NCBI RefSeq assembly: GCF_024648885.1 | Contig: NZ_JANBBF010000009.1 | Span: 744,001-808,000, forward strand | Direction of reading: 5' to 3' | DNA: 64,000 nt | From: Prauserella salsuginis | GTDB lineage: Bacteria; Actinomycetota; Actinomycetes; Mycobacteriales; Pseudonocardiaceae | In this document: positions 45,998-54,585 of the stretch, piece after piece | Layout: each line of letters begins with the position of its first letter | How positions within the stretch are numbered: the stretch's first letter is position 1 | The notes under the pieces: model-generated | Database searches by the model: none | Seen by the model: only the letters and a program-made list of their open reading frames with translations | Told to the model about the DNA's origin: nothing | Translations under genes and position numbers: made by a program

Positions 45998-46699
45998 TCA
46001 CACTTCCTTCCGCAGCGGCGTGCCTCCGGCGAGAGGGTCGTCGGCGGCGAGGGTCGCCCGTTCACTGGAACGGACGTGGTCACGCATGGCGAATTCGGCT
46101 CCGAAGCCGTCCTTCTCCTGAATCAGCTCCAGCACGTTCCGGTGCTCTGCCAGCGATGCGCCGAGTCGGCCGGGCCGGGTCAGCGATGCGGATACCAGCC
46201 GGTGGTAGGCGAGCTGGTTCATGAGCGTCCGGTAGTGCGATTCCAGTTGTGAGTTGTCGGCCCCGACGACGAGCAGTTCGTGGAAGCCGTGTACGAGGCG
46301 CGCGTAGTCCTCGGTGTCGCCCTGTGCCACGGCCCGCCCGGAGCGCTCGAGGTTGTCCTCGATCTCGTCCAGGACGGGCACCGGCCCGCGGGCGGCCAAC
46401 AGTCGTGCGGCCATGCCTTCGAGCATCTCCTTGAGCTCGAACAGCTCCACGACTTCGCGCCGACTCGGGGAACGGACGAACGTGCCGACTCGTGCGCGGA
46501 CCTCGACCAGTCCTTCGATCTGGAGCTGCTTGAGCGCTTCTCGAACCGGAGTCCGCGACACGTCGTACTCGGCGGCGAGGGCGAGTTCGGAGAGTGGCTC
46601 GCCGGGAGCGTGCCGACCTTCGATGATCGCGCTCCGCACACCGGCCAGAACCCGCGCCTGCGCCCCGTTCCGCCCGACAACCTCGGTAGGTTCTTGCAT
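45998..46699 (-). CDS. GntR-family regulator, FadR/FCD subfamily
   Basis: The product has 233 residues. N-terminal winged helix: VLAGVRSAIIEGRHAPGEPLSELALAAEYDVSRTPVREALKQL, then GTFVRSPSRREVVELFELKEMLEGMAARLLA opens the all-helical FCD ligand domain, with the metal-type residues in HGFHELLV and H near AEHRNVLE. It heads the leftward monooxygenase operon and is divergent from the BCCT transporter. Its ATG sits in the middle of a perfect CTTGCATGCAAG palindrome, so binding there should block its own expression and that of the operon. Confidence 0.9.
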   Translation of the reverse strand: MQEPTEVVGRNGAQARVLAGVRSAIIEGRHAPGEPLSELALAAEYDVSRTPVREALKQLQIEGLVEVRARVGTFVRSPSRREVVELFELKEMLEGMAARLLAARGPVPVLDEIEDNLERSGRAVAQGDTEDYARLVHGFHELLVVGADNSQLESHYRTLMNQLAYHRLVSASLTRPGRLGASLAEHRNVLELIQEKDGFGAEFAMRDHVRSSERATLAADDPLAGGTPLRKEV

Positions 46700-46834: not shown

Positions 46835-46846
46835 CTTGCATGCCAC
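46835..46846. promoter_or_regulatory. second GntR operator-like site
   Basis: CTTGCATGCCAC repeats the first nine bases of the palindrome at 46693-46704 and lies 142 bases from it, 88 bases before the BCCT start. The region 46725-46845 is AT-richer than its surroundings, as expected for a promoter zone. Confidence 0.4.
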
Positions 46847-46934
46847 ATTGACGCGTCATGCGCACTCCCGGAACCGGGATGCGGCGCGGACGCTCCTTCC
46901 CGCGGTCCCACGGAGAATCTCGACGGAGACAACG

Positions 46935-48536
46935 ATGTCCGATTTCTTGACCGTGCCGCCGGTTCGCCGGCGTCCCGGACCTGTCCTGTACGTCTCGCTC
47001 ACGCTGGCCCTGGCGATCGTCGTCTGGGGCGCTGTCGCGAGTGACTCGCTTGCGGTAGCGGGTGCCACGGCTCTCGACGGGATCACGCGCGGGCTCGGGT
47101 GGGCCTACTTGGCGGCGTCGCTCGGCTTCCTCGTGTTCCTTCTCGTGCTGGCATGCAGCCGGTATGGCCGGTTGCGTTTGGGAAAGGACGACGATCGACC
47201 GGCGTTCCGTCGTGTCACCTGGTACGCGATGATCGTCTCAGCCGTCATGGGGATCGGCCTGGTCTCCTACGGGGTGGCGGAACCGATCAGCCACCTCGCT
47301 GCCCCGCCTCACGGGCTCGCAGCACCGATGACCTCCGGCGCGGCGGTCACGGCGATGCAGTTCTCGTTCTTCGACTGGGGGTTGCATGCCTGGGGCATCT
47401 TCGCCGTCGTCGGGCTGGCTATGGCGTGGTCGATGTTCCGCCGGGGGCGGCCCGGGCTCGTCAGCGCGCTGTTGCGCCCGTTACTGGGGCGCCGTGTGGA
47501 GGGAGCTGCGGGTAAAGGAGTCGACGTGTTCGCCGTCATCGCGACGTTGTTCGGCACCACGACTTCCCTCGGCCTCGGGGCTCTGCAGATCAACGGAGGG
47601 CTGACGAGTCTGTTCGGCATCCCGAACTCGCTGCCGGTGCAGTTCGCCATCATCGCGGTCATCACGTTGTTGTTCACCGCGTCGGCCTTGACCGGTGTCG
47701 CCAAGGGGATTCGCTATCTGTCCGAGGCGAGCATGGGGCTCGGTGGGGCCTTGTTCGTGTTCGTCCTCATCGTCGGCCCGACCATCTACTTGGCGAACCT
47801 GTACGTGGAGTCGGTCGGCCGGTACCTCAGCGAGCTCGTCGCGACCAGCCTCATCACGCCGGCGAGCGGAGACCTGGGCTTCATGCAGAACTGGACGTAC
47901 TTCATGCTCGCGTGGTGGCTGTCGTGGGCGGCCTTCGTCGGGGTCTTTCTGGCCCGTATCTCGCGGGGACGGACAGTGCGCGAGTTCGTTACCGGGGTGC
48001 TGCTCGTGCCGACTGTGGTGTTCACGGCGTGGTTCACGGCCTTCGGTGGTACGGCGATCAATCGCGACATGGGTGGCGAGACGGCGATCGGGGCCGCAGC
48101 CGCGGAGGACACGAACGCTGCATTCTTTGCGACTCTCGACTCGCTGCCGCTGACCGCCATCACATCGATCGTGACGATCGTGCTGGTGATCCTGTTCTTC
48201 ATCTCCGGCGCCGACGCGAACACGTACGTGCTGGGAATGCTCACCAGTCACGGTACGGAGCAACCGTCGCGCGGGGTGCTGGCGCTGTGGGGTGCCGTGA
48301 CCGGCGCGGCGGCCATTGCCCTGTTGGCGGCTGGTGGGCTGGAGTCGCTCCAGCAGATGGTGATCGTCAGTTCGGCACCGTTCCTCGTCATCGTGATCGC
48401 CGTCGCGGTCGCCTTCGCGAAAGACGTGATGTCGGAGCGACCGCAGACAGGTCCGCCGGCGGCGGCCAATGAGCACACAGTGCGAGCTGAGCGATCCGGA
48501 CTCGAGCTGAACGAGGCGGCGGCATCCCGGGAATGA
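46935..48536 (+). CDS. BCCT-family betaine/carnitine/choline transporter
   Basis: The product has 533 residues and 12 expected helices. The BCCT signature region is present: GIGLVSYGVAEPISHLAAPP in helix 3, QFSFFDWGLHAWGIFAVVGLAMAW, and WTYFMLAWWLSWAAFVGVFLARISRGR in the helix-8 aromatic box. BCCT carriers take up quaternary ammonium or betaine compounds with Na+ or H+, using the tryptophan-rich box to hold the cationic group. I choose ATG 46935 (GGAG 8 bases upstream); the frame is open further back. Divergence from the monooxygenase operon suggests the imported solute is that pathway's substrate, such as trigonelline or another pyridinium betaine. Confidence 0.92.
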   Translation: MSDFLTVPPVRRRPGPVLYVSLTLALAIVVWGAVASDSLAVAGATALDGITRGLGWAYLAASLGFLVFLLVLACSRYGRLRLGKDDDRPAFRRVTWYAMIVSAVMGIGLVSYGVAEPISHLAAPPHGLAAPMTSGAAVTAMQFSFFDWGLHAWGIFAVVGLAMAWSMFRRGRPGLVSALLRPLLGRRVEGAAGKGVDVFAVIATLFGTTTSLGLGALQINGGLTSLFGIPNSLPVQFAIIAVITLLFTASALTGVAKGIRYLSEASMGLGGALFVFVLIVGPTIYLANLYVESVGRYLSELVATSLITPASGDLGFMQNWTYFMLAWWLSWAAFVGVFLARISRGRTVREFVTGVLLVPTVVFTAWFTAFGGTAINRDMGGETAIGAAAAEDTNAAFFATLDSLPLTAITSIVTIVLVILFFISGADANTYVLGMLTSHGTEQPSRGVLALWGAVTGAAAIALLAAGGLESLQQMVIVSSAPFLVIVIAVAVAFAKDVMSERPQTGPPAAANEHTVRAERSGLELNEAAASRE

Positions 48537-48953: not shown

Positions 48954-48983
48954 TTGACGCGGTCGGATTCCTATGGTTAGAAT
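48954..48983 (+). promoter_or_regulatory. promoter of the ygc-like operon
   Basis: TTGACG (48954-48959), an 18-base spacer and TAGAAT (48978-48983), five of six in each box. Transcription should start near 48990 and make a leader of about 115 bases before the first start codon. Local sequence is notably AT-rich. Confidence 0.65.
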
Positions 48984-49008
48984 CCTACTCGCTCATAATC
49001 GAATAAAC

Positions 49009-49035
49009 GTTGCTAAAGATGCAGAGAACAGCAAC
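49009..49035 (+). promoter_or_regulatory. antiterminator hairpin in the leader
   Basis: GTTGCT (49009-49014) pairs with AGCAAC (49030-49035) over a 15-base loop. The right arm uses bases 49030-49033, which are also needed in the 5' arm of the terminator stem, so the two hairpins exclude each other. This is the arrangement expected for protein-controlled antitermination. Confidence 0.55.
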
Positions 49036-49073
49036 CCGGATTTTGACCCCGGGCTATGCTGTTCTCTTTTTTT
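49023..49073 (+). terminator. intrinsic terminator/attenuator in the operon leader
   Basis: AGAGAACAGCA (49023-49033) pairs perfectly with TGCTGTTCTCT (49057-49067). An inner CCCGG/CCGGG stem (49035-49039 with 49049-49053) extends it, and seven consecutive T (49067-49073) follow. It ends 31 bases before the transporter start, so it must be bypassed for expression. Canonical T-run terminators are rare in GC-rich actinomycete DNA. Confidence 0.8.
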
Positions 49074-49104
49074 GTGTCCTAATACCCACAGTGAGGTGGT
49101 CCGG

Positions 49105-50385
49105 GTGAACGATGCGCGGAGGCGGTTCAGCTATCTGCTGCTGTGCATTTCTGGTGGTGTTGTTTTCCAGGTCGCCTACATTCGTTTCGTTTTCCTGGAG
49201 CCGACTTACCACGCACTCGGCCTCACCGCGCAGGAATACGGCGACATCATGTCCGTGTTCGGCGCCGTGGCCGCGGTCATGTACTTCGTCGGAGGTTGGT
49301 TCGCCGACCGCTTCGCCCCGCGCACGCTGGTTGTCGCCGCGCTGGTGATCACCGGCCTCGCAGACATGGCACTGACCACCATCCCAGGCTACGCCGCGGT
49401 GCTGCTCGCGCACGTCGCGATGGCATTCGCCGGAATGGCGCTCTACTGGCCCGCACTGGTGAAGGTGATCGGCTCGTGCGGTCCCGCCGAACAGCAAGGC
49501 AGGTTGTTCGGTTTCCTGGAGGCGATCCGCGGTGTCACGTCGACGCTGATCAGCGGGTTTGGCGCGTACCTGGTCGGTGTCGCACTGGCCCCGACCGTCG
49601 GGGTGCTCGTGCTCATCGCGATCTACGGCGGCCTGTGCCTTGTGCTCGCCGCATTGATCTGGTTCGCACTGCGCGGCCAGGCGGACCGCGTCTCGGACGG
49701 TGAACGCTCGGCCCTGTCGATTCGCCAGCTGATTTCGGCTGCGCGGAACAAGTACACCTGGCTGCTCGGCGGCACGATCATGCTGATGTACTGCTTCTAC
49801 ACCACGCTCGGCTACTTCTCGCCCATGCTGCAACACGACTTCGGCGTCACGGCCGGGCTGATCGGCATCCTCGGTGTGGTGCGCAGCTACGTCTTCCAGT
49901 TCGTCGCCGGTCCACTCGGCGGATTCTGCGTGGACAAGGTGACGCGGTCCACGCCGCGGTTCCTGCGGTTCACTTTCGCCGGCGCGACGCTGTGCGTCGT
50001 GGTGCTGCTGATACTGCCCAGTTCGGCCGCGCTGCAGTGGGCGGCGGTGACTCTGATGTTCATGCTGTCGTTGATGGTGTTCGCCAGTCGCGGTGTGTAC
50101 TGGGCGAGCATCACCGAGGCGCGCATCCCGGAGGATCAGCGCGGCGGCGTGATCGGTCTGGCTTCGGGGCTTGCCTACCTGCCGGATGCGTTCCTGCCCG
50201 GTCTCGTGGCCAGCTGGATCGGCGATCCGACCGCCGGCACGGCTCCGAACGGGGGCTACACCGCGCTGTTCGGCTTCCTAGCGGTCGTTGGCGTGCTGGG
50301 CCTGGTCCTGACCTCGGTCACCCTGTGGGTGCAGCGGCGGGAACCGGTTGCCGAGCCGGATCGGCTCACCCCAACCCTGACCTGA
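49105..50385 (+). CDS. MFS transporter, YgcS-like
   Basis: The product has 426 residues with 12 expected helices (for example ISGGVVFQVAYIRFVFLEPTY, YGDIMSVFGAVAAVMYFVGGWFADR, YTTLGYFSPMLQHDFGV). It is the first gene of the four-gene operon. I choose GTG 49105 with a GAGGT site about 9 bases before it. The frame stays open back to ATG 48973, but that codon precedes the -10 box and the extension would be translated through the terminator hairpin. By position and partners it corresponds to the transporter of the E. coli ygc cluster. Substrate unknown; a sugar, polyol or sugar acid is likely given the kinase and dehydrogenases. Confidence 0.85.
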   Translation: MNDARRRFSYLLLCISGGVVFQVAYIRFVFLEPTYHALGLTAQEYGDIMSVFGAVAAVMYFVGGWFADRFAPRTLVVAALVITGLADMALTTIPGYAAVLLAHVAMAFAGMALYWPALVKVIGSCGPAEQQGRLFGFLEAIRGVTSTLISGFGAYLVGVALAPTVGVLVLIAIYGGLCLVLAALIWFALRGQADRVSDGERSALSIRQLISAARNKYTWLLGGTIMLMYCFYTTLGYFSPMLQHDFGVTAGLIGILGVVRSYVFQFVAGPLGGFCVDKVTRSTPRFLRFTFAGATLCVVVLLILPSSAALQWAAVTLMFMLSLMVFASRGVYWASITEARIPEDQRGGVIGLASGLAYLPDAFLPGLVASWIGDPTAGTAPNGGYTALFGFLAVVGVLGLVLTSVTLWVQRREPVAEPDRLTPTLT

Positions 50386-50396
50386 CCGACCATGCG

Positions 50397-51188
50397 ATGA
50401 AAGGCTTCTCGTTGGAAATCCGAGACTTCTCCCTCGATCTCTTCTCGCTGCGCGGGTGGAACGCGATCGTCACCGGTGGCAACACCGGTCTCGGGCAAGC
50501 GTTCACCGTTGCCCTGGCCAAGGCAGGTGCGAACGTGTACGTGCCGAGCGTGATCGATGACGACGGCGAGACCAGACGGCTGGTGGAGGACGCAGGTTCC
50601 CGGTTCGAGACGCTGCAGATCGACCTTACCGAGCAAGGTGCGCCCGGTAGGGTCGTGAAGTCCTGCGTGGACGTTCTCGGATCGGTCGACATCCTGGTGA
50701 ACTCCGCGGGCATCTCCAAGCTGGCACCTGTGGCGGAGTTCGGCCGCGACGAGTGGGATCCGATGGTGGCGCTCAATCTGACCGCACCGTTCGAGCTCGG
50801 GTGGGTGGCTGCACGGCAGATGGTGGAGCAGGGTCACGGCAAGATCATCAACGTTGCCTCCCTGTTCTCCTTCCTCGGCGGCCAGATGTCGCCCGCGTAC
50901 GCGGCGGCCAAACACGGCATCGTCGGCTTCACGAAGGCCTACTGTGACGAGCTCGGCGCGCACAACATTCAGTGCAACGCCATCGCCCCCGGTTATTTCG
51001 CCACGCCGATCACTGCGCAGACCCGCGCGAACCCGGTCACCAACCAGCGCGTGCTCGACCACATTCCGGCCGGGCGCTGGGGCGAGCTGGGAGACTTGAT
51101 GGGCGCACTGGTCTTCTTGGCGAGCCGGGCATCCGACTACGTGAACGGGCACGTCCTCACCGTCGACGGCGGCTACCTCACCCGATGA
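50397..51188 (+). CDS. SDR dehydrogenase, YgcW-like
   Basis: The product has 263 residues. Beyond the SDR basics (TGGNTGLG, NSAG, Ser in NVASLFSFLGG, Tyr-Lys in AYAAAKHG), long stretches match remembered E. coli YgcW: GFTKAYCDELG, IAPGYFATPIT, NPVTNQRVLDHIPAGRWG and DLMGALVFLAS. YgcW belongs to the KduD/IdnO-like sugar-acid dehydrogenase group. It begins 11 bases after the transporter stop at ATG 50397 with no clear ribosome site; TTG 50412 (AAAGG 7 bases upstream) is an alternative. The stop overlaps an ATG of the next gene (ATGA). Confidence 0.9.
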   Translation: MKGFSLEIRDFSLDLFSLRGWNAIVTGGNTGLGQAFTVALAKAGANVYVPSVIDDDGETRRLVEDAGSRFETLQIDLTEQGAPGRVVKSCVDVLGSVDILVNSAGISKLAPVAEFGRDEWDPMVALNLTAPFELGWVAARQMVEQGHGKIINVASLFSFLGGQMSPAYAAAKHGIVGFTKAYCDELGAHNIQCNAIAPGYFATPITAQTRANPVTNQRVLDHIPAGRWGELGDLMGALVFLASRASDYVNGHVLTVDGGYLTR

Positions 51189-51217: not shown

Positions 51218-52663
51218 ATGGACACCACCGCCATCATCGAACGGCTGCGAGAGATCGCCGGGCCCGAGCGCGTGGACACCGACGAGCGGCTGCTGCGCGA
51301 GGCCAGTGTCGACCGGTTCAAGAAGTACACGGCAGTGCATGGCATCTACGACGGGCCGTTCCCGATCGCCATCGTGCGCGCCGGCAGCACGGAGCAGGTC
51401 GCCGCAGTGCTGGCTTTCGCGAACGAACACGGTGTCAACATCGTCCCGCGTACCGGACGTACCGGCACTGAGGGCGGACTCGAGACCAGTTTCGAGCGCA
51501 CCGTGGTGCTCGATGGGTCCGAAATGGACGAGATTGTGCACGTCGACCCGGTCGACATGCAGGTCACCGTGCAGTGCGGGGTGTCGCTCGAACTGCTGGA
51601 GGAACGCGTGCGGGAACTGGGTCTGACCACCGGCCATTCGCCGCAATCCAAGCCGCTCGCGCAGATGGGAGGGCTGGTCGCCACGCGTTCGATCGGGCAG
51701 TTCTCCACGCTCTACGGCGGCATCGAGGACATGGTCGTCGGCTTGGAAGCAGTGTTCCCGGACGGGACCGTCGGCCGCATCAAGAACGTGCCGCGCCGTG
51801 CCGCCGGCCCGGACATCCGGCACGTCGTGATCGGCAACGAGGGCGCGCTGTGCTTCGTCACCGAAGTCACGGTGAAGTTGTTCAAGTACCAGCCGGAGAA
51901 CAATCGCTTCCACGGCTACCTGCTCGATGACGTGCGCACCGGCATCGAGATCCTGCGTGAGATCGTGACGAACGGCTTCCGCCCCTCGGTCGCGCGGGTC
52001 TACTCCGAGCAGGACGCCGCGCAGCACTTCTCCCACTTCGCCGGGGGCAAATGCGTAGCAGTGTTCCTCGCAGAGGGGCCCGCCGGACTGGTGGAGGCGA
52101 CAAGCGCGGAGATCGAACGAGTGGTGGGCAGGCAACCGCACGAGCGGGTGGCGCCGGAGCTGATCCGCGAATGGTTCGACAACCTGAACTGGGGCCCGGA
52201 CAAGATCCGCGCCGAGCACGAGACGATGCTCGCTGAGCGCCACCTCGGTTACACCACCGAGGTGGCGGCGAACTGGTCTGTGATCGGCGACATCTACGAG
52301 GCCGTGATTGCCCGTATCACCAAGGAGTACCCCCACTTCCAGGACATCACGATGCTGGGCGGGCATTCCTCGCACAGCTATCAGACCGGTACGAACATGT
52401 ACTTCGTCTACGACTATGACATCGACTGCGAGCCGCGCGAGGAAATCACGAAGTACCACATCCCGCTCAACGCGATCATCGTTGAGGAGACGCTGGCGCG
52501 CGGCGGATCGATGGTGCACCACCACGGCATCGGCAAGTACCGCGCGCAGTGGACCGAGGAAGAACACGGCAGCGCATATCCGATCCTGCGCAAGCTCAAA
52601 GAAGTGTACGATCCCAACGGCATCATGAATCCGGGCACCATCTTCCCTGCTGGAAACCGCTGA
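51218..52663 (+). CDS. FAD-linked oxidase, YgcU-like (alkylglycerone-phosphate synthase-type fold)
   Basis: The product has 481 residues. An FAD-binding PCMH domain (VPRTGRTGTEGGLETSFERTVV-type loop, then TTGHSPQSKPLAQMGG LVATRS, STLYGGIEDMVVGLEAV, PRRAAGPDIRHVVIGNEGALC) is followed by a C-terminal domain with GGHSSHSYQTGTNMYFVYDY and GSMVHHHGIGKYR ending PNGIMNPGTI. These blocks match remembered E. coli YgcU almost word for word. Related enzymes oxidise 2-hydroxyacids or rearrange alkylglycerone phosphates. I choose ATG 51218, which aligns with the YgcU start and has GAAGGAAA nearby; ATG 51185 is also in frame. TGATG overlap joins it to the kinase. Confidence 0.9.
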   Translation: MDTTAIIERLREIAGPERVDTDERLLREASVDRFKKYTAVHGIYDGPFPIAIVRAGSTEQVAAVLAFANEHGVNIVPRTGRTGTEGGLETSFERTVVLDGSEMDEIVHVDPVDMQVTVQCGVSLELLEERVRELGLTTGHSPQSKPLAQMGGLVATRSIGQFSTLYGGIEDMVVGLEAVFPDGTVGRIKNVPRRAAGPDIRHVVIGNEGALCFVTEVTVKLFKYQPENNRFHGYLLDDVRTGIEILREIVTNGFRPSVARVYSEQDAAQHFSHFAGGKCVAVFLAEGPAGLVEATSAEIERVVGRQPHERVAPELIREWFDNLNWGPDKIRAEHETMLAERHLGYTTEVAANWSVIGDIYEAVIARITKEYPHFQDITMLGGHSSHSYQTGTNMYFVYDYDIDCEPREEITKYHIPLNAIIVEETLARGGSMVHHHGIGKYRAQWTEEEHGSAYPILRKLKEVYDPNGIMNPGTIFPAGNR

Positions 52664-54027
52664 TGACCGGATACCTGATCGGCATCGATAACGGTTCGCA
52701 AAGCACCAAGGTCACCGTGTTCGACGAACGCGGCGTGGTGCACTCGCGCGCCCGCGTTCCGCTGCGCCCCAACGACACACCCCGGCCTGGCGTAGTCGAG
52801 CATCCCGATGACGATCTGTGGGACTCGATCGGCGCGGCCACGCGCGCGGCGCTGGTGGCCTTCAACGGTGAGCCCGAAGACATCATCGGCGTCGGACTGT
52901 GCACGATCAGGTTCTGCCGTGCACTGCTGCGCCCCGACGCTACACTCGCCCAGCCGGTGCTGAGCTGGATGGACGAGCGCGTCTCTCGGCCGTATGTGCA
53001 CGTGAACCCCGACGTCCACTACGTCACCGCGTCCTCGGGCTACATCACAGCCCGGATGACCGGGCAGTTCCGCGACACTGCCGCGAATTACCAGGGAATG
53101 TGGCCGATCGACACCGACACGTGGGCGTGGGAAGACCAACCCGACATCCCGCGCGAGATGCTGTTCGAGCTGGTCCACCCCGGCGACGAGCTCGGGACGG
53201 TGACGGCGGAGGCGGCGGCACACACCGGCCTGCCGGAGGGGGTGCCGGTGTTCGCCACCGCCAACGACAAGGCGGTGGAAGCGCTCGGCGGTGGCCTCGG
53301 CGACGAGCGTACGCTGCTGCTGTCGCTCGGCACCTACATCGCGGGCATGACCACCGGTACGAGGAACATCCACGACGCCGACGCGTTCTGGACCAACTTC
53401 GCATGCCGCCCGAAGAAGTACCTCTACGAGAGTCATGGCATCCGCCGCGGCATGTGGACGGTCAGCTGGTTGCGCGACATGCTGGGAGAAGAAGCCTGGC
53501 TCAACGAGGGAGCCGGTACCGTGCCGCCCGGGTGCGACGGCCTCATCGCGGTTCTCGACTGGCTTGCTCCGGTGGGAGCGCCTTTCCGCAGGGGAGCGTT
53601 CCTCGGGTTCGACGGCACGCAGGGCCCGTTTCACATGTACCGAGCCGTGCTCGAAGCGATCGCGTTGACCATGTGCGGCAACGGGAATGCGATGGCTGCG
53701 GAGCTGGACACGGAGTTCGAACAGCTACTGGTGTCCGGTGGCGGTGCCGGATCCGATGTGCTCATGCAGATCATCGCCGACGCGTTCGACCGGCCGGCGC
53801 GACGTGCGCAGGGCGGCGCGGCATTGGGATCGGCGATCTGCGCAGGTGTGGGTTTGGGCCTATTCGGCGGCTTCGACGAGGCGGTGGCGGCGATGGTGCG
53901 ACCGGGCGAGGAGTTCACGCCTTCCCGCGAGGCCCACGAACACTACCGGCGGTTGCAGGAGGTTTACCGTGAGCTGCCAACCTACACCGATCCGCTGTTC
54001 AACTGGCTGGCGTCGGCGGGAGGGTGA
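52663..54027 (+). CDS. FGGY-family carbohydrate kinase, YgcE-like
   Basis: The product has 454 residues. The phosphate-1 loop is LIGIDNGSQSTKVTVFDERG; the adenosine/phosphate-2 loop is LLVSGGGAGSDVLMQIIADAFDRP, followed by GGAALGSAICAGVGLG. The family includes glycerol, xylulose, gluconate and ribulose kinases. The catalytic-base region lies near LSWMDERVS. The start codon overlaps the oxidase stop (TGATG). Within the operon it should phosphorylate the keto product of the dehydrogenases, and that phosphate could be the ligand of the convergent GlpP-type protein, whose stop lies only 3 bases away. Confidence 0.88.
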   Translation: MTGYLIGIDNGSQSTKVTVFDERGVVHSRARVPLRPNDTPRPGVVEHPDDDLWDSIGAATRAALVAFNGEPEDIIGVGLCTIRFCRALLRPDATLAQPVLSWMDERVSRPYVHVNPDVHYVTASSGYITARMTGQFRDTAANYQGMWPIDTDTWAWEDQPDIPREMLFELVHPGDELGTVTAEAAAHTGLPEGVPVFATANDKAVEALGGGLGDERTLLLSLGTYIAGMTTGTRNIHDADAFWTNFACRPKKYLYESHGIRRGMWTVSWLRDMLGEEAWLNEGAGTVPPGCDGLIAVLDWLAPVGAPFRRGAFLGFDGTQGPFHMYRAVLEAIALTMCGNGNAMAAELDTEFEQLLVSGGGAGSDVLMQIIADAFDRPARRAQGGAALGSAICAGVGLGLFGGFDEAVAAMVRPGEEFTPSREAHEHYRRLQEVYRELPTYTDPLFNWLASAGG

Positions 54028-54030
54028 GCG

Positions 54031-54585
54031 TCACATAGCCCAAACGCCCACATTGGACGACGCGATGGCAGTGGCTCCCGCACGCAGTGCCGCAACCACG
54101 TCATCCTTGTCGCACACGAGCCCGCCCGCGATGATCGGGACGTCGGTCTCTTCCCGTATCCAAGTAATCACGCGCGGTACGCAGCCAGGAAGGATCTCGA
54201 TGTAATCGGGCTTAGAGATCGCCAGCTGTTTGCCGAGGTTGTGGTAGGAGAACGAGTCGACAAGAAAGAAGCGGTGAACGGCAAGTAGCCCGCGTGCCTT
54301 GGCAGCCCGCACGATGCTCGCCTTGCTGCTGAGTACGCCGTCGGCCCGCGTCCGCTCAGCGACGAAGTCGACGGCGACGTCCCGATTCACCAGTCCCTCG
54401 ACCAAGTCCACGTTGACCAGCACGGTCTTACCGGTGGCGCGCAGTTGCTCAACCAGATCAGGCAGCGTCAGAACCGACCCGTACAGCAGGAAAGTGACCT
54501 GCGGATCGGCCGTGGCGACAGCCTGAAGTCCGGACTCGTCCTTAATGCTGGCAATGACGGGCTGGTCCAGCAAAAGTTCGTGCAT
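54031..54585 (-). CDS. GlpP-family transcription antiterminator, YgcP-like
   Basis: The product has 184 residues. It matches Bacillus GlpP by eye: VNVDLVEGLVNRDVAVDFV, ADGVLSSKASIVRAAKARG, HRFFLVDSFSYHNL, KPDYIEILPGCVPRVI and IIAGGLVCDKDDVVAALRAGA. GlpP is a TIM-barrel protein that binds glycerol-3-phosphate and the leader mRNA of glp genes, preventing termination; E. coli YgcP is its enterobacterial relative. Here the gene is convergent with the kinase gene of an operon whose leader contains a terminator. I infer it binds that leader when a phosphorylated intermediate is present. Single start ATG 54585. Confidence 0.88.
   Translation of the reverse strand: MHELLLDQPVIASIKDESGLQAVATADPQVTFLLYGSVLTLPDLVEQLRATGKTVLVNVDLVEGLVNRDVAVDFVAERTRADGVLSSKASIVRAAKARGLLAVHRFFLVDSFSYHNLGKQLAISKPDYIEILPGCVPRVITWIREETDVPIIAGGLVCDKDDVVAALRAGATAIASSNVGVWAM

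Follow-up and report, generated by a model that had tools for sequence, protein, structure and literature searches.

The leader RNA upstream of a catabolic operon in Prauserella salsuginis is probably (about 0.86 by our estimate) a protein-dependent transcription-antitermination switch served by the GlpP-type protein encoded at 54031-54585. Coordinates refer to the window, the 64,000-nucleotide stretch of contig NZ_JANBBF010000009.1 that was analyzed. The initial annotation had proposed such a GlpP-type switch from the leader sequence, and sequence comparison now supports it through covariation of both stems, the tracking of the element with close GlpP genes, and matches to classical glp leaders.

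Leader anatomy and the downstream operon

A consensus scan placed a sigma-70-type promoter (TTGACG-18-TAGAAT) at 48954-48983 on the plus strand, as first annotated; it was the sole match between 47 and 60 kb, a region in which about one match would be expected by chance. Promoters of the form TTGACR-18-TACGYT, with equal spacing and at almost equal distance, were found in four relatives (L014, L015, L016 and L019) and were absent from the remaining 12 of the 16 relatives returned by the genome scan and from Streptomyces clavuligerus. Early in the predicted transcript lies a 5' box, ATAATCGAATA (48995-49005, plus strand; most frequent form ACAACCGAATA). A regular expression for this ACAAYCGAATA-like box, written after the leaders had been inspected, matches 0.33% of random 55-nt stretches; it located the box ahead of the hairpin in 15 of the 18 leaders from actinobacteria and in 0 of the 4 others. 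The actinobacterial box resembles ACAAGTTAATA of the Cytobacillus and Paenibacillus glp leaders. In L017, L018, L020-L024 and L026-L029, inspection by eye showed a further hairpin after the 5' box and immediately before the GTTACT arm; its sequence varies and is GC-rich in several cases. No counterpart was evident in the window.

The antiterminator hairpin (49009-49035, plus strand) pairs GTTGCT (49009-49014) with AGCAAC (49030-49035) around a 15-nt loop. The intrinsic terminator (49023-49073, plus strand) consists of an 11-bp stem, in which AGAGAACAGCA (49023-49033) pairs with TGCTGTTCTCT (49057-49067), an inner 5-bp stem (CCCGG/CCGGG), and a run of seven T (49067-49073). Both hairpins had been described in the initial annotation and were confirmed here. 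Bases 49030-49033 are common to the two stems, so that only one can form, as had been stated. The terminator folds at -25.8 kcal/mol (z -7.75 against shuffles), and the 6-bp antiterminator at -4.1 kcal/mol (z -1.0), an energy that by itself is not beyond chance; it is by conservation and covariation that this hairpin exceeds chance. When folding of the growing transcript was followed, the antiterminator was part of the best structure up to 49056 and the terminator prevailed from about 49060. The loop (49015-49029) holds the proposed GlpP site, composed of AAAGAT, which deviates from the usual AGAGAC, and AGAGAAC.

The first gene after the leader encodes an MFS transporter (49105-50385, plus strand; PF07690) that is 27% identical to E. 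coli YqcE. Its likely start, GTG at 49105, is preceded by GAGGTGG and lies 31 bases past the T run, in keeping with the earlier claim of at least 31 bases between the hairpins and the first start codon; translation might instead begin at an in-frame GTG at 49096. The MFS gene that follows the leader in Saccharopolyspora endophytica (L028:14424-15682) matches in two separate pieces, perhaps reflecting a broken gene or a sequencing error. Next on the plus strand, by profile and comparison, are a KduD-like SDR dehydrogenase (50397-51188; 63% identical to its E. coli homologue YgcW), a GlcD-like FAD-linked oxidase (51218-52663; 63% identical to YgcU) and an FGGY sugar kinase (52663-54027; 46% identical to YgcE). 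A GlpP-family gene had been noted at the other end of the operon. One does lie there (54031-54585; PF04309; 45% identical to E. coli YgcP), but it is encoded on the minus strand and runs towards the operon, convergently, rather than belonging to it. Its product matches PF04309 with E = 1.8e-58 over the full length, positions 1-173 of 173; its relatives in the PDB are 3kts and 1vkf, and it is the sole GlpP-family match in its own genome. Since only one of seven genomes of the genus has GlpP, we infer that the cluster of GlpP, MFS, SDR, oxidase and kinase genes was probably acquired by the host. The leader is immediately preceded, on its own strand, by a gene for a BCCT betaine/choline-type transporter (46836-48536); next to that gene is one for a GntR-like regulator (45998-46699, minus strand) that scores below the NCBIfam cut-offs.

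The window combines the parts expected of a GlpP-dependent leader, namely a promoter, a leader terminator before the first gene, and a cognate GlpP in the genome. The operon is not a glycerol (glp) regulon: its genes encode the MFS transporter, SDR, GlcD-like oxidase and FGGY kinase and include none of glpF, glpK, glpD or glpT, and the kinase scores 82.6 bits against a cut-off of 590 for GlpK (TIGR01311). Because the enzymes match those of the E. coli ygc cluster and not those of a glycerol operon, our guess is that the operon may be induced by what its own kinase produces instead of by glycerol-3-phosphate.

In the mechanism that we propose, RNA polymerase would start near 48990, as judged from the promoter, and the weak hairpin at 49009-49035 would form first during transcription. 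By default, the strong terminator at 49023-49073 would then form and keep the operon off. A GlpP-type protein carrying a phosphorylated ligand would bind the loop at its tandem AGAGA boxes and hold the hairpin, which would remove the 5' arm of the terminator and permit read-through into the MFS, SDR, FAD oxidase and kinase genes. GlpP binding, this direction of control, and a ligand that would be the kinase product or a related phosphate are presumed.

Conservation and covariation of the competing stems

A genome scan with the window GlpP protein returned 16 close loci, all actinobacterial and 56-82% identical, in Saccharopolyspora, Prauserella, Amycolatopsis, Sciscionella, Streptomyces, Arthrobacter and Leucobacter. 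The element, a terminator with a nearly identical stem together with the sequence preceding it, was found in all 16. It was also found in a Streptomyces clavuligerus plasmid and two Enterococcus plasmids (15 stretches from 14 of 39 plasmid records with GlpP were examined), and twice in E. coli K-12, before ygcW and before yqcE in their shared intergenic region. The gene right after the element varies, being the MFS, SDR or FAD oxidase gene, whichever heads the cluster. Comparison of homologous operons for competing stems, a check suggested in the initial annotation, thus recovered both stems in each of the 16 close loci, and both covary.

Pairing and covariation were counted in an alignment of 22 leaders (A1). 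The antiterminator stem was paired in 99.2% of 132 cells (131/132), and 4 of its 6 pairs had changed on both sides, a number reached by 1 of 500 shuffles; two of these four changes depend on one E. coli row each. For the terminator stem, 95.3% of 236 cells were paired and 5 of 11 pairs showed two-sided changes, again reached by 1 of 500 shuffles. Slid versions of the stems were paired in 20-69% (antiterminator) and 39-83% (terminator) of cells, a control that is biased towards the tested stems, since these were defined from the window. Further pair types were no more numerous than in shuffles, which reached the same level in 207 of 500 cases for the antiterminator and 381 of 500 for the terminator. 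At the four doubly used columns, both partners pair in 21, 22, 20 and 13 of the 22 rows; gapped rows were scored as unpaired, and six such rows fall in the last column. At one of these columns, all three letters are altered in the leader of E. coli ygcW.

Mean identity in A1 was 0.95 and 0.94 for the loop boxes, compared with 0.92 and 0.89 for the arms. That the loop boxes are the best-kept segments fits the expectation for a protein site. The consensus reads GTTACT-AGAGAC-N2-4-AGAGAAC-AGTAAC, and the second box opens the terminator stem. The leaders of E. raffinosus and E. gilvus have identical hairpins, and the former was left out of alignment A3 and model R1.

GlpP might instead bind the leader and mainly stabilize the mRNA or modulate a constitutive attenuator, with termination itself unswitched. 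Stabilization has a precedent, in that excerpts of PMC7430163 describe B. subtilis GlpP as also stabilizing glpD mRNA. Two mutually exclusive stems kept by covariation would be superfluous under such an arrangement, and we regard it as very unlikely.

Control of the hairpins by another RNA-binding antiterminator, of the BglG/LicT type, or by a leader peptide is more improbable still. BglG/LicT proteins and their RAT hairpins resemble the proposed switch in that a protein holds a weak hairpin overlapping a terminator, as excerpts of PMC7430163 describe for LicT-type proteins; however, they belong to an unrelated family, defined by CAT_RBD rather than PF04309. No CAT_RBD protein was found in the window's own genome, whereas 4 of 14 control genomes gave matches, and no conserved short reading frame was noticed by eye in the 22-leader alignment.

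Linkage to GlpP genes and to classical glp leaders

Model R2 was run over 397 genomes of the order. Six of them gave the element at E < 1e-13, and these same six, and no others, have a close GlpP (74-100% identical to that of the window). Four genomes of the order with a distant GlpP (26-32%) had no element, and one further genome gave a weak match (E = 0.007) and has no GlpP. In a scan of 394 genomes of the class, the element was found in the window's own genome only and was absent from the three others with GlpP over the cut-off. Both scans were run with stricter filters, and G622 is probably the L019 genome, so the 397-genome scans add absences more than new presences. Within the window's own genome, R1 and R2 gave one good match each, the next matches having E = 1.8 (R1) and 0.016 (R2).

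Two genomes that carry the SDR, FAD oxidase (88% and 70%) and kinase genes without GlpP had no element; both clusters also lack the MFS gene. A FAD oxidase homologue at G653:C10:123465-124895 contains one in-frame TGA. The co-occurrence of element and GlpP may reflect parts of one gene cluster travelling together. Among more distant GlpP loci, R1 gave no match at eight (L030-L032 and L037-L041), one of which encodes a protein 42% identical, and terminator and motif scans found no element of this type. A regular-expression scan of L046-L050, with R2 on L047, gave one match, in L050 downstream of glpP and without a clear terminator.

These distributions bear on whether the leader might be a metabolite riboswitch that binds a ligand itself while GlpP acts elsewhere. 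Small riboswitches, too, can be built from competing stems and a conserved loop, and since no Rfam family matched the leader at gathering score (the only match in the window being a tRNA elsewhere), a new class is conceivable. We consider a riboswitch improbable: what is conserved is a 15-nt loop carrying two AGAGA repeats, and no junction or pseudoknot was seen by eye; strong matches among the 397 genomes occurred only with a close GlpP, and neither GlpP-less enzyme cluster had the element; and leaders of the known GlpP class match model R2.

For B. subtilis, excerpts of PMC9604022 (which cites older work) describe a GlpP binding site in three glp promoters, and excerpts of PMC9604022 and PMC7430163 state that GlpP with glycerol-3-phosphate prevents termination for glp genes. 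The window leader is like those of B. subtilis glpD, glpFK and glpT in having a GlpP-family protein, a promoter, a GlpP site (putative in the window) and a 5'-UTR terminator, a likeness to their description in excerpts of PMC9604022 rather than to the B. subtilis sequence itself. It differs from the classical leaders in controlling a ygc-like operon, in its clear 6-bp antiterminator, and in its actinomycete host. The window GlpP is only 30-31% identical to the GlpP of Cytobacillus, Listeria and Paenibacillus.

Model R2, which contains no classical glp leader, was run over 15 sources and recovered four of five glpF, glpD and glpP leaders, relating the element to the classical leaders at modest and rough E-values: Acetoanaerobium glpF (5e-4), Cytobacillus glpD (0.0016), Paenibacillus glpP (0.006; kinase next) and Paenibacillus glpD (0.66). 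The Cytobacillus glpF leader gave no match at E ≤ 1, although the box pair is present. The other R2 matches either lay antisense to the hairpins of the window and of E. coli or had E ≥ 0.25; one antisense E. coli hairpin, at 0.0018, scored about the same as the Cytobacillus glpD leader. R1 with filters off found nothing at the classical leaders.

Inspection by eye showed RGAGA-N-RGAGA in all five leaders from Cytobacillus, Paenibacillus and Acetoanaerobium; in each, it is the second box that opens the terminator stem. Upstream of this motif, (A/G)CAAGTTAATA occurs in the four Cytobacillus and Paenibacillus leaders and resembles the actinomycete 5' box. Bare AGAGA-N2-6-AGAGA is common, occurring 19 times in the 690-kb Cytobacillus record, with two of these in the glpF and glpD leaders, and is therefore no proof by itself. 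Two AGAGA pairs in the Listeria record were rejected as glpD and glpF leaders; the adjoining genes are others. None of the classical leaders examined has a clean 6-bp antiterminator, and for this reason binding of the protein to the second box may suffice in them. In Paenibacillus cellulosilyticus (L051:5854-5932), glpP has an element-like leader of its own, which suggests autoregulation by GlpP in this species. The GlpP box of Bacillus glp leaders may already have been described in Glatz 1996/1998 and in Holmberg and Rutberg 1991/1992.

Relation to the E. coli ygc cluster

Like the window, the E. coli ygc cluster (ygcP, ygcS, ygcU, ygcW, yqcE and ygcE) encodes a homologous SDR, FAD oxidase, kinase and GlpP-type protein, and both of its divergent units have the same leader as the window operon. 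It differs in that its two leaders share one intergenic region, ygcP lies elsewhere in the cluster, the flavoprotein genes ygcQR are additional, and the MFS proteins are 27% identical. Between ygcW and yqcE in E. coli K-12 (L033:20296-20571), the two leaders flank a palindrome, TGTGATCGTAATCACA, which we take to be of CRP type. The ygcW-yqcE region was matched in 5018 of 5426 complete genomes, and in 4999 of these the match covered 80% or more of the query. The intergenic region is listed as a CRP target in an excerpt of PMC3105977. Among the literature matches listed, there was no account of YgcP as a regulator or of this leader. By sequence, the ygcW-yqcE region appears to be an antitermination locus of a model organism that has so far escaped description.

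We would give even odds to a broader proposal, taken jointly: that members of the YgcP branch of GlpP act as RNA-binding antiterminators that read a tandem AGAGAC/AGAGAA loop; that this branch and its RNA target have moved as a pair among Actinomycetota, Enterobacterales and Enterococcus; that it senses the product of an uncharacterized sugar kinase and not glycerol-3-phosphate; that in most E. coli both divergent ygc units are under its control; and that one box-pair code serves the whole GlpP family, including the classical glp leaders. The switch proposed here would bring a catabolic operon of actinomycetes within the range of protein-dependent antitermination. It predicts the same control at the uncharacterized ygc locus of E. 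coli K-12.
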